64,000 bases of DNA from NCBI RefSeq assembly GCF_000317145.1, contig NC_019697.1, positions 3,630,385 to 3,694,384 on the forward strand. The letters are read 5' to 3'. Shown one piece after another: positions 4,626-9,493 of this stretch (position 1 is the stretch's first letter; every line of letters starts with the position of its first letter). Position numbers and translations under genes: made by a program. Source of the stretch: Chamaesiphon minutus PCC 6605. GTDB taxonomy: Bacteria > Cyanobacteriota > Cyanobacteriia > Cyanobacteriales > Chamaesiphonaceae. A model generated the notes under the pieces. That model was not told the origin of the DNA. It did no database searches and was given only the letters and a program-made list of their open reading frames with translations.

Positions 4626-6311
4626 TCAAGCTGGCACCGTATAAGCGATAAGCTGCCCGACTCGCTGCCGCAGCGTCTCCAAACTCAGACGTTCGGATGC
4701 TGAAATAAATACAGCATTGGGAAATTCTTCCTCAGCTTGCGCCAATCGTTCGCCATCCACTCGATCGATCTTATTAAACACGATCAGCGATGGCCCTGGC
4801 GCGATCGGCATCTCGCTCAAGATTCCCATAACCGAGCGGATATGGCTGTGCCAAGCTGGATGCGACAGATCGATTAGATGAATCAGTGCATCGGCTTCAG
4901 TTACTTCCTCTAGCGTGGCACGGAAGGCATCCATCAGCGGCGGTGGTAACTCATGAATGAAACCCACCGTATCCGTGAGTAAGATTTGCCGCTGTTCGCC
5001 AGTATTACTCGTCGGCACATTAAAGCGACGAGTCGTTGGATCCAGAGTCGCAAACAATTGGTCGGCAATGTAAACTTCGGAATTAGTCAGCGTATTCAGC
5101 AAAGTAGATTTGCCTGCATTAGTATAACCCACTAATGCGACAGATGGTACATCGTGATGTTGCCGCTGTTGACGCAGCCGCGAACGGTGGGCTTGAAGCT
5201 GATTTACGTCCTGCTGGAGCCGCGAGATTCGCTTTTGAATCGTCCGGCGTTCGGTCTCTAATTTGGTCTCTCCAGGCCCTCTAGTGCCGATCCCACCACC
5301 TTGGCGGGACATGGCAAGACCCCGCCCAGTTAGGCGCGGTAGCATGTATTCTAGCTGGGCTAGCTCGACTTGCAATTTACCCGCGCCCGATTGAGCGCGC
5401 TGGGCGAAAATATCTAAGATCACCTCAGTTCTGTCTACTACCCGAATCCCAATTTGAGTTTCGAGATTTCGCCCTTGGCTGGGGGATAGATTGCAGTCAA
5501 AGACGATCAGATTCGCACCAATTTTTTGAGCGGCGAGGGCGATTTCTTGGATCTTCCCTTCGCCAACGACAGTTTGCGGGTGGGGTTTCGATCGTTTTTG
5601 TTGGACGGTTTGCAGGACTTCGCCGCCAGCAGTTTCGACTAATCTGACAAGTTCTTCCAAACCATCATTAAACCGTTGAGTAGTTACATAGTCGGTTTTG
5701 ACACCAACTAATAATACTCGATCGATTTCGTCGGCGACATTTTGATTCGCGATATCCCGTGCGTATTCGCTTTCGATCCCATCGACCAGATCTAGAAAAT
5801 CTTGGTCGCTAACCGCATCCAAACTTAATGGCGGCGAAATCGTCCAGTTAATCTCTGGATGCGGTACCAAGTGGGCAAGATAGGTATCTTGAATGTATCC
5901 AGTCGCGCCCCCTCCCCGCTTTTGAAAACCGCTACCAGTAATATTCAAAATTACCAGCGCATCCAGACGCTGCAACGCCATCGATGTCAGCGCGCTCTCG
6001 CTAGGAATCTCCGGTTTGAGCTGAGTCGAAATACACCGGATCCCGCTCAACCGTTCCGCACCATAACGGGGTAGCTCCAACGGGGGAATTTGTGTCTGAC
6101 GGGGAGTCCCGACACCCAAACGGATAATTTGTCCGCGCCGATTGATATACACGCTCACCGGATCGCCGATTTCTGCACTAATCGCCGCTAGTTTTTGGGC
6201 AAATTCTGGCGTAGTCAGTCGATCGCCTGGTAGTCTGTCGTTATATAACTTCCGTAGCTGTTTGATCTGATTGGATTTTAATCCTTGTAAGTTGCCGTAT
6301 ATCGTCTCGAT
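4626..6311 (-). CDS. hflX: GTPase HflX, probable non-canonical start codon
   Basis: HflX is a ribosome-associated GTPase that splits stalled or stress-inactivated 70S ribosomes. The sequence has the HflX-specific N-terminal domain (TVVGEGKIQEI, then the GGIGTRGPGETKLE linker), a coiled stretch, and the G domain: GYTNAGKST (G1), DTVGFIHELPP (G3), NKID (G4). The first standard start is GTG at 6158 (510 codons), but the frame stays open upstream to a stop at 6330-6332. Those codons encode what I recall as the conserved cyanobacterial HflX N-terminus (IYGNLQGLKSNQ ... LTTPEFAQKLAAIS). No ATG, GTG or TTG lies at its beginning. An ATC at 6311-6309, eight bases after GGAG, sits where relatives start with ATG. 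I therefore place the start at 6311 (561 codons). Confidence 0.85.
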   Translation of the reverse strand: METIYGNLQGLKSNQIKQLRKLYNDRLPGDRLTTPEFAQKLAAISAEIGDPVSVYINRRGQIIRLGVGTPRQTQIPPLELPRYGAERLSGIRCISTQLKPEIPSESALTSMALQRLDALVILNITGSGFQKRGGGATGYIQDTYLAHLVPHPEINWTISPPLSLDAVSDQDFLDLVDGIESEYARDIANQNVADEIDRVLLVGVKTDYVTTQRFNDGLEELVRLVETAGGEVLQTVQQKRSKPHPQTVVGEGKIQEIALAAQKIGANLIVFDCNLSPSQGRNLETQIGIRVVDRTEVILDIFAQRAQSGAGKLQVELAQLEYMLPRLTGRGLAMSRQGGGIGTRGPGETKLETERRTIQKRISRLQQDVNQLQAHRSRLRQQRQHHDVPSVALVGYTNAGKSTLLNTLTNSEVYIADQLFATLDPTTRRFNVPTSNTGEQRQILLTDTVGFIHELPPPLMDAFRATLEEVTEADALIHLIDLSHPAWHSHIRSVMGILSEMPIAPGPSLIVFNKIDRVDGERLAQAEEEFPNAVFISASERLSLETLRQRVGQLIAYTVPA

Positions 6312-6536
6312 ATGCTCTTCTCCAACGCATTACTTCTAGTGTAGTAGCTGGCGGCGGCGTTTGGGATCGCTGCTTGTAAAACTTTGTTACTACCGCGATC
6401 GACGATAATTTGAAATCGCAAATAATTAAGATAAAATCATTGGCCAGCACAGATCTAACAGTCTATAGATGAATAGAAAAAATGTGAAGATCGGTTAGAG
6501 TAAAATTACATCCGATCGGTACTCCCTGAGCACATC

Positions 6537-6962
6537 ATGACTTTTACACTATTCGGTCGCTGGCAGATTCGCGTGTTGCTATTGGCGACAGTTGGGCTAT
6601 TATTAACCATCCTAATGGTATTCAAGTCGAGTCCATCGATCGCTGGACAGACATTGCTAACGTTAATCTATCTCGGTATATTCGGAATAATCTGGGATCT
6701 TATCTATCATCAGCTCCAACGGTTTCGGTGGGATGGCGACTGGAATGGGTTATTACAGTTCGGTGCTGCGGTGTGGGAAGGGCTATTTTTGATAACGATT
6801 GTTAAGGTTATCGGCTTACCGGGGATCGATCGAGCAAACTTTAATATTCCTGGATTTATCGGGTTTTATACTAGCTTTAGCCTGCTAAGTTCGATTGTCA
6901 CTCATTCGTTACTCCGCATTCTATCGCCATATTCGCGCTTCAATGGGGGACAATGGTTTTAG
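6537..6962 (+). CDS. Conserved hypothetical membrane protein
   Basis: A 141-residue protein with about four hydrophobic helices (roughly 11-30, 40-60, 75-95 and 108-130) and a cytosolic-looking basic/aromatic loop YHQLQRFRWDGDWNG between the second and third. The lengths and loop fit an integral inner-membrane protein. I recognise it only as the type of small membrane protein found conserved in cyanobacteria, with no function. It lies divergent from hflX across 225 bp and is followed by a pyrimidine-rich repeat and an exported protein gene. Confidence 0.75.
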   Translation: MTFTLFGRWQIRVLLLATVGLLLTILMVFKSSPSIAGQTLLTLIYLGIFGIIWDLIYHQLQRFRWDGDWNGLLQFGAAVWEGLFLITIVKVIGLPGIDRANFNIPGFIGFYTSFSLLSSIVTHSLLRILSPYSRFNGGQWF

Positions 6963-7007
6963 AGAGTAGTGGATAGTGGATAGAGTTTTGACACGAGCGT
7001 TTTTAAT

Positions 7008-7084
7008 TGTCCCCTCATCTCCATGTCCCTTCGTCTCCCTGTCCCCTCATCTCCAAGTCTCCCCCTGTCCCCTCGCTTCCTCCT
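7008..7084. repeat. Pyrimidine-rich heptamer-like repeat before a start codon
   Basis: An almost pure C/T tract made of variants of CCTGTCC, CTCATCT and CGTCTCC runs up to the ATG at 7085. A shorter tract of the same kind lies at 238-262. Open frames through it are low-complexity artefacts, so the downstream gene is started at 7085. Confidence 0.65.
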
Positions 7085-7519
7085 ATGCTAATTCGTACCT
7101 TCATCACATTTGCCATTGCCCTCCTTGTATCGATGTCTACAGGGCTATTTGCCCCCGCAGCGTTGGCAGTCACTCCCATTACCTTGTCAAAAGTCGATTA
7201 CAAGGATTGTCCGCCAGAAGTTGCACAGGGTGCGGTGACTAGTGGCGGTGTGACTCAAGGTGCTGCCTGTTTCTTGATTGTCGGGAAGGCTGAAAACAAG
7301 TCGGGGAAAACTGTCTACGACGCAGATGTCTATGGACGGATCTATGATGCGGATAATAATAACGTCTTACCAAATCGGGGACGCGTGGGTTTAATCGAGC
7401 AGGTGCCGCCAGGAATTAATGATTTTGAGATGCGAATTACGGTTCCAGAAAGTGCGCGGCAACCACTGCAATTGAAAAAGTTTAAAGCTTCTGGTTTCGC
7501 AACCAAAATTAGACAGTAA
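7085..7519 (+). CDS. Exported hypothetical protein
   Basis: A 144-residue protein with a Sec signal peptide: LIR, a hydrophobic core to about residue 22, and probable cleavage after APAALA (residue 28). The mature part has two cysteines (DCPPEV and AACFLIV) that could form a disulfide. It then has a beta-rich section with a YDADVYGRIYDADNNN motif and a PPGINDFEMRITVP strand, which suggests a small immunoglobulin-like sandwich of the kind found in FxLYD proteins. The fold is inferred and the function is unknown. The ATG at 7085 is chosen because the longer frame runs through a low-complexity tract. Confidence 0.75.
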   Translation: MLIRTFITFAIALLVSMSTGLFAPAALAVTPITLSKVDYKDCPPEVAQGAVTSGGVTQGAACFLIVGKAENKSGKTVYDADVYGRIYDADNNNVLPNRGRVGLIEQVPPGINDFEMRITVPESARQPLQLKKFKASGFATKIRQ

Positions 7520-8121: not shown

Positions 8122-9493
8122 CACGGCTAGCGCACCTCAAACCCTATTGACAAAGGGATTGCTGCTGAGGGCTTCTATTTGAGAAAGATCTGAGCTAGGG
8201 TAGGTACGAGCGTCCATCTAGCGATTACAGTGAAAGTAATGCCGACACAAGTAGAAAAGAAGAAGCAAAAAACTGAAACAGTCGGAGCGACGAATTTAGA
8301 CAGCCAAGAAATTACAAAGAAGTTTGGGCAATACTTTCAAGATATTAAAGATCCCAGAACCCAGAGGACGAGAGTACATCTACTCAAAGACATTATCACC
8401 ATTGCCATCTTGGCAGTAATCGCAGGAGCAAAAGGATGGGAGGATATGGAAGAGTATGGTGTGAATAAGCAAGAGTGGTTAAGTACATTTCTAGAGCTAC
8501 CAGGCGGAATCCCCAGCGCCGACACATTTAGAAGAGTATTTGAAAAAATCAATCCCAAAGAATTAGAGCAATGCTTTCGGCTGTGGGTGCAATCACTAAT
8601 TGAGCAACTAGGAGTGGAAGTAGTCGCCATTGATGGTAAAACCAACAGAGGTTCATACGACAGGGCATCTGGGGTCAAAGCGTTGCACATGGTGAGTGCA
8701 TGGGCGAGTGAGCATCGATTGGTCTTGGGACAAACAAAAGTCAGTGCTAAATCTAATGAAATCACAGCGATTCCCGCATTATTAGAATTGCTAGACATTC
8801 AAGGCTGTATCATCACTATCGATGCAATGGGCACGCAGAAATCGATGGCGACGAAGATTACTGGAGCAAATGCCGATTATGTGTTAAGCCTTAAGGATAA
8901 TCATCCAACACTACACCAACAAGTCAAAAGCTGGTTTGAGACAGCACAATCACAGGGGTTTAAAGGCGTAGATGTCAGTATTAGTCAGCGGGTGGAGAAA
9001 GGACATCATCGGATTGAAAACCGGAAAGTTTACACTGTCCCTGTTTCACAACTACCATTGCTGTATCAACAAGACCAGTGGAGTGGACTGCAAACAGTTG
9101 TGATGGTTGTACGCAAGTCTCAGTATTGGAACAAGACCACTCATGAAGTCCAATTTTACCTAACCAGTCTTCTCAGCGATGCCAACCGGATTGGTAGTGC
9201 GATTCGCCAGCACTGGGGGATTGAGAATTCTGTCCATTGGACATTAGATGTCACCTTTGATGAGGACAAATCTCGCATTCGTTCTCTCCACGGTCCGCAG
9301 AATTTTGCCGTGTTACGTCGCCTTGCACTTAATGCCTTAGAACGTGAGACATCTTTTCGGCGTAGTATTCGTCAAAAGTCCCGGCGAACCGCGATGAATG
9401 ACCGCTATATGCTTGCTGTCTTATCTGCGGCTGTTCCCACTTCCCATCCAAGCACATCCGCTTGTCAATAGGTTTTGAGATGCGCTAACCGTG
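8122..9493 (+). mobile_element. ISAs1-family insertion sequence, copy 1 (1372 bp)
   Basis: Ends are defined by imperfect terminal inverted repeats: left CACGGCTAGCGCACCTCAAA from 8122, right (complement) CACGGTTAGCGCATCTCAAA ending at 9493. A perfect 10-bp target duplication ACTGACCCTC lies at 8112-8121 and 9494-9503. One transposase gene fills the element. The second copy (32920-34291) has the same length and encodes an identical protein, so both are recent insertions and probably still mobile. Confidence 0.95.
8230..9471 (+). CDS. ISAs1-family transposase
   Basis: A 413-residue DDE transposase. The N-terminal associated domain (about 30-125, with IAILAVIAGAKGWEDMEEYG) precedes the catalytic core: D135 in VVAIDGKT, D198 in ITIDAMG, and E332 in HWGIENSVHWTLDVTF. 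The length is slightly above the roughly 370-380 usual for the family, owing to a charged N-terminal leader. Translation seems to start at the GTG at 8230; an ATG three codons later is an alternative. The protein is identical to the copy at 32942-34183. Confidence 0.95.
   Translation: MKVMPTQVEKKKQKTETVGATNLDSQEITKKFGQYFQDIKDPRTQRTRVHLLKDIITIAILAVIAGAKGWEDMEEYGVNKQEWLSTFLELPGGIPSADTFRRVFEKINPKELEQCFRLWVQSLIEQLGVEVVAIDGKTNRGSYDRASGVKALHMVSAWASEHRLVLGQTKVSAKSNEITAIPALLELLDIQGCIITIDAMGTQKSMATKITGANADYVLSLKDNHPTLHQQVKSWFETAQSQGFKGVDVSISQRVEKGHHRIENRKVYTVPVSQLPLLYQQDQWSGLQTVVMVVRKSQYWNKTTHEVQFYLTSLLSDANRIGSAIRQHWGIENSVHWTLDVTFDEDKSRIRSLHGPQNFAVLRRLALNALERETSFRRSIRQKSRRTAMNDRYMLAVLSAAVPTSHPSTSACQ

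Follow-up and report, generated by a model that had tools for sequence, protein, structure and literature searches.

Where does translation of hflX begin in Chamaesiphon minutus PCC 6605? In the window (the whole 64,000-nucleotide stretch of DNA analysed here), the first ATG, GTG or TTG of the hflX frame is a GTG at 6158-6156 on the minus strand, and the codons upstream of it stay open and translate to IETIYGNLQGLKSNQIKQL. A sequence-only reading of this DNA had claimed that these 51 codons encode a conserved-looking N-terminus, that no canonical start lies between the upstream stop and this segment, and that hflX seems to begin at a non-standard ATC eight bases after a GGAG. Inspection from the in-frame TAA to the GTG bore out the open segment, the lack of a canonical codon and the position of the ATC (Table 1). 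The six codons leading from TAA to ATC are TGC GTT GGA GAA GAG CAT, with no ATG, GTG or TTG among them, and the ATG closest to the ATC (6330-6328) is in a different frame. The product was identified as HflX by TIGR03156 (471.3 bits against a cut-off of 216.75) and by PF13167, PF16360 and PF01926, which all score above their cut-offs and represent the N-terminal, middle and MMR_HSR1 G domains, respectively. The neighbouring gene 5' of hflX (6537-6962) lies on the opposite strand, so that hflX is not translated behind it. Further along the window, short near-repeats of the type GGGGACAGGGAGA cluster at 6990-7090, and positions 8230-9471 hold a 413-amino-acid ORF resembling a DDE transposase.

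Table 1. Features of the hflX locus, in window coordinates
Feature	Position	Strand	Basis
hflX coding sequence from ATC, 561 amino acids	4626..6311	-	TIGR03156 and Pfam domains
hflX start codon ATC, putative fMet	6309..6311	-	homologous codon is ATC or ATA in 110/110 loci of the first set and 182/207 non-redundant loci
GGAG, Shine-Dalgarno-like	6320..6323	-	spacer to ATC of 8 nt (6319-6312)
CAT codon directly 5' of ATC, T at -1	6312..6314	-	T at -1 in 131/137 strict loci and 44/60 lepA/engA controls
TAA, in frame, bounding the hflX frame 5'	6330..6332	-	sequence
51 codons, conserved HflX N-terminus, lost if the start is GTG 6158	6159..6311	-	

We initially formed a set of 110 homologous loci, including the window's own copy, that align from query residue 1 at 69-100% identity. 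The N-terminus is kept throughout this set, and codon 1 is ATC in 65 loci and ATA in 45, with nothing else observed; since every locus carries one of these two codons, the ATC of the window exceeds what chance would give. The set was then extended by 30 loci and by 100 stretches chosen by hand from a sample of the phylum; of the 291 genomes sampled, 160 gave no hit at an E value of 1e-60, and several matches stopped short of the N-terminus. This gave 233 hflX loci, of which 219 could be anchored, and removal of 12 duplicates left 207 non-redundant loci. The 14 unanchored loci are all picocyanobacterial (L207-L215 and L231-L235); nine of them were read by hand, and L231-L235 were left out. Codon 1 of the 207 loci is ATC in 109, ATA in 73, ATT in 4, ATG in 7 and another triplet in 14.

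We defined a locus as strict if no ATG, GTG or TTG occurs between the upstream stop and residue 6. After removal of L177, 137 of the 207 loci qualified, the window included, and they are spread over the phylum, with at least one strict locus in 36 of 45 tabulated families (126 loci, families f41 and f27 not included). Codon 1 of the strict loci is ATC in 75, ATA in 61 and ATT in just 1, while the other isoleucine codons of the same genes (residues 2-115) comprise 423 ATC, 138 ATA and 606 ATT (606 of 1,167). By this comparison of codon counts, codon 1 is unlike an ordinary isoleucine codon, and its conservation goes beyond usual isoleucine codon use. On a tree of 121 full-length hflX genes built without residues 1-5 (67 ATC, 53 ATA and 1 GTT), codon 1 changed at least 11 times among ATC, ATA and the single GTT, and never to ATG.

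Control genes follow the usual pattern: lepA and engA start with ATG in 30 of 30 loci each, within 12 codons of a conserved motif. A second type of long hflX also has a conventional start, with ATG at most one codon from the position of codon 1 in all eight genes (L172, L177, L186, L221, L223, L224, L226 and L228), seven of which occur beside an ATC copy and one alone. These eight branch outside the clade of the 119 other cyanobacterial rows (support 100/98) and do not form one group, in a midpoint-rooted tree of 115 columns in which many forks are unresolved. In three further loci, L159 (G195), L156 (G222) and L167 (G139), hflX carries an in-frame stop, or one is reported inside the match. 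Overall, the claim of a non-standard hflX start is upheld by ATC or ATA being kept in many families, by the strict loci, by the ATG starts of the controls and by the Shine-Dalgarno-like (SD-like) motifs described below.

Several explanations would remove the need for an AUC or AUA start. ATG is a single base change away from ATC, and the sequence-only reading had suggested a G/C error at this codon. That suggestion fails, because ATC also occurs in six other, independent Chamaesiphon hflX genes (L004-L009), which excludes a G/C error; together with the ATC or ATA of all 110 loci and the quality of the source assembly (6.76 Mb in 3 contigs, nearly complete at a figure of 100%), this leaves a sequencing or assembly error hiding an ATG exceedingly improbable. 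Initiation at a downstream canonical codon, either GTG 6158 as the earliest in the frame or another one, would mean that the 51 upstream codons are not protein. This is very unlikely given that the N-terminal stretch is kept as protein in 110 loci, that the first downstream canonical codon shifts from residue 8 to residue 108 across strict loci (median 41, and none within the stretch covered in 3 of 137), and that 5' of the ATC the near-identical Chamaesiphon genes L001 and L004 differ in frame, with 7 versus 43 open codons. Equally poor are the prospects of a programmed frameshift or of an upstream frame feeding the hflX frame. An out-of-frame, GTG-started ORF of 69 codons (6450-6241) does overlap the start site in the window, but 112 of 138 strict loci (L177 included) have no ATG-started ORF over the codon in the other two frames; when GTG and TTG are also allowed, 70 of 138 have no spanning ORF, and a looser version would be possible in the other half.

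A start two codons upstream, at the usual xxG (ACG, AAG, GCG or GAG, with some GTG or ATG) followed by CCT and an internal AUC or AUA, deserves somewhat more weight and is still unlikely. It would account for the frequency of G at -4, which is 107 of 137 among strict loci and 16 of 60 among controls, and it can draw on the 33 loci with ATG, GTG or TTG at codon -2, 26 of which still have ATC, ATA or ATT at codon 1 (7 have another triplet). Against it, codon -2 is a stop in 6 strict loci (codon -3 is a stop in 41) and has a central T in just 9 of 137, while according to PMC4611024 the middle U is the only base of a start codon that does not vary. A start at codon -2 also leaves unexplained why ATT is so rare at codon 1. 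On comparative sequence grounds, we consider it very likely that translation of hflX truly starts at AUC or AUA.

There are departures from this pattern. Among the 186 loci with an AUH triplet at codon 1, 28 have an ATG, GTG or TTG at most three codons upstream and 20 more have one only farther upstream, so initiation at these loci may not be at AUH. In family f14, codon -2 is ATG and codon 1 is ATC, ATC, ATT, ACT, ACT and ACA, L133 and L164 have GTG at codon -2, and family f39 has TTG. We considered whether an upstream ATG or GTG always frees codon 1; the 26 of 33 loci that keep ATC, ATA or ATT contradict this, and f14 itself splits three to three. In the nine hand-read picocyanobacterial loci, where the position of residue 1 was extrapolated, TTG (8) or GTG (1) precedes it by two codons. 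L153, L154 and L176 have ATT plus one extra residue, and L185 perhaps uses CTG. The other classes of the phylum contribute five loci. Two of them, L202 (ATT) and L203 (ATC), fit the strict definition and show GAGGAGG or AGGAGG 5' of the codon; in L204 the codon is ATT, with a GTG at -3, and the last two, L205 and L206, carry ATG. The AUH start of hflX may therefore be older than the photosynthetic class, a point that five loci are too few to show.

Pyrimidines occupy both -2 and -1 in 125 of 137 strict loci, and a di-pyrimidine at these positions has been proposed to matter for cyanobacterial initiation, with base -1 proposed to stabilise fMet-tRNA pairing (PMC5622118). As a mark of non-AUG starts, T at -1 is borne out only partly, being frequent in the controls as well (Table 1).

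Many leaders carry a hairpin of the form CCA...TGG that ends 9-12 nt 5' of codon 1 (93 loci, 80 of them distinct), and it is absent from the hflX leader of the window. An SD-like motif lies at most 9 nt 5' of the hairpin in 68 of the 80. At positions -17 to -4, such a motif is found in 58 of 93 hairpin-free AUH loci versus 1 of 80 hairpin loci, and at -41 to -18 in 18 of 93 versus 71 of 80; this displacement is partly geometry, because the hairpin occupies the usual SD place, and as related species are not independent, p-values for these counts, like those for the overlapping ORFs, overstate certainty. We interpret the hairpin as a bridge between the SD-like motif and the start, which would shorten their effective distance. 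Covariation of its stem is weak, the fourth pair being formed in 51 of 80 loci (48 GC, 2 AT and 1 CG). For five typed leaders, the folding energy does not fall clearly below that of shuffles (z from -0.05 to -1.94). Four hairpin-bearing loci, searched whole against Rfam, gave no match at the gathering score.

Hairpins between an SD and a start codon are known from phage T4 gene 38. The cyanobacterial hairpin resembles that case in that it would shorten the effective SD-start distance, and it differs in that bridging in hflX is suggested by comparison only, with weak covariation. The start codon itself has a precedent in Escherichia coli infC, which encodes IF3, starts with AUU and is under autocontrol by IF3. 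Cyanobacterial hflX is similar in having an AUH start that lacks a 3' G, in encoding a factor that acts on subunit joining and in being kept in many relatives. In contrast, the gene is hflX, the codon is AUC or AUA with AUU rare, many loci have a hairpin between the SD-like motif and the start, and any autocontrol, whether through HflX itself or through IF3, is hypothetical. E. coli hflX (L274), from the same GTPase family, also has an annotated start other than AUG, but this is a UUG (TTG), which has a 3' G and is canonical for IF3, and its HflX lacks the long N-terminal part.

The same question can be asked of infC in Chamaesiphon. All eight infC loci of the genus (G000:C1:696419-696919, or L249, in this genome, and L275-L281) lack ATG, GTG and TTG in the open stretch, and the counterpart of the GTG seen in other cyanobacteria is ATC in seven and ATA in one. 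Across the phylum, 28 of 30 infC loci have a canonical codon, which is a GTG near the motif in 22; the two that lack one are that of this genome and that of G075 (L265, from another class, with ATT after GAGGAGG). The canonical starts of these 28 loci indicate that hflX and infC do not share a codon class phylum-wide. An IF3-sensitive codon class thus seems common to infC and hflX in Chamaesiphon and confined mostly to hflX elsewhere. The arrangement xxG-CCT directly before the start, with its G at -4, is often common to hflX and infC loci.

Our best reading of the whole, to which we assign a probability of about 0.8, is that hflX has a conserved, weak AUC or AUA start of the class discriminated by IF3, which would hold a ribosome-splitting GTPase at a low level. 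HflX is reported to split 70S ribosomes and to prevent subunit joining (PMC6912228), and low HflX would be useful for that reason. IF3, for its part, is described as discriminating against start triplets without a 3' G (PMC4611024). In the proposed mechanism, initiator tRNA would decode AUC or AUA as fMet, and IF3 would destabilise initiation at these triplets for want of a 3' G, giving low HflX synthesis. A shortage of IF3 relative to 30S subunits would raise HflX output, so that its synthesis would be coupled to the balance of IF3 and 30S in a feedback resembling that of infC. HflX expression is probably kept weak by its start codon, and the sharing of AUC or AUA at this position by most other cyanobacteria examined suggests that this weakness is kept on purpose. 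The idea of an infC-like weak start that limits hflX expression is plausible and fits the infC genes of the same genus, which have no canonical start.

Whether the codon also confers regulation is a separate matter, and we put IF3-dependent control of hflX, beyond a constant low rate, at even odds. The competing view, that the start is real and unregulated and that AUC or AUA merely sets a constant rate without a response to IF3, is only a little less credible. It fits all the sequence evidence equally well, and because most cyanobacterial infC genes start with GTG or ATG, no shared circuit is visible outside Chamaesiphon. Two points count against it: IF3 discrimination against such codons is reported as a general bacterial property (PMC4611024), and it takes a reason beyond drift for codon 1 to have changed at least 11 times without turning into ATG. 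A more ambitious version of IF3 control is tentative and in our view rather doubtful. In it, hflX would join infC as a gene whose start codon is sensed by IF3, throughout the phylum and in most cyanobacterial families, with AUG selected against and HflX going up when free IF3 falls; HflX, which also acts against subunit joining, might even help to reject the codon from which it is itself made, in the way of IF3 with infC.

We found no description of an AUC or AUA start of hflX in the literature searched, which did not extend to most subscription papers, and the accessible part of a comment on Synechocystis proteogenomics does not mention HflX. In a reconstruction of how start codons change, 2 of 68,906 ancestral starts changed to AUU (PMC5622118; our sum). 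A motif named uORFC-6-1 is reported 5' of hflX, mostly in Bacillales (PMC8632094); as described there, it likewise concerns translational control of hflX, but works through a leader peptide and RNA structure rather than through a rare start codon, and is not cyanobacterial. A distant DNA search for hflX in plasmids gave no match. At protein level, plasmids yielded 86 records, and the two examined were a long HflX from Fusobacterium (ATG) and E. coli hflX (TTG).

AUC and AUA starts are considered near-negligible in bacteria, and hflX keeps one across dozens of families. This suggests that gene finders restricted to ATG, GTG and TTG would shorten HflX by about 50 residues in species resembling C. 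minutus. A start codon that alternates between AUC and AUA and never becomes AUG also allows IF3 control to be tested cleanly on a gene other than infC.
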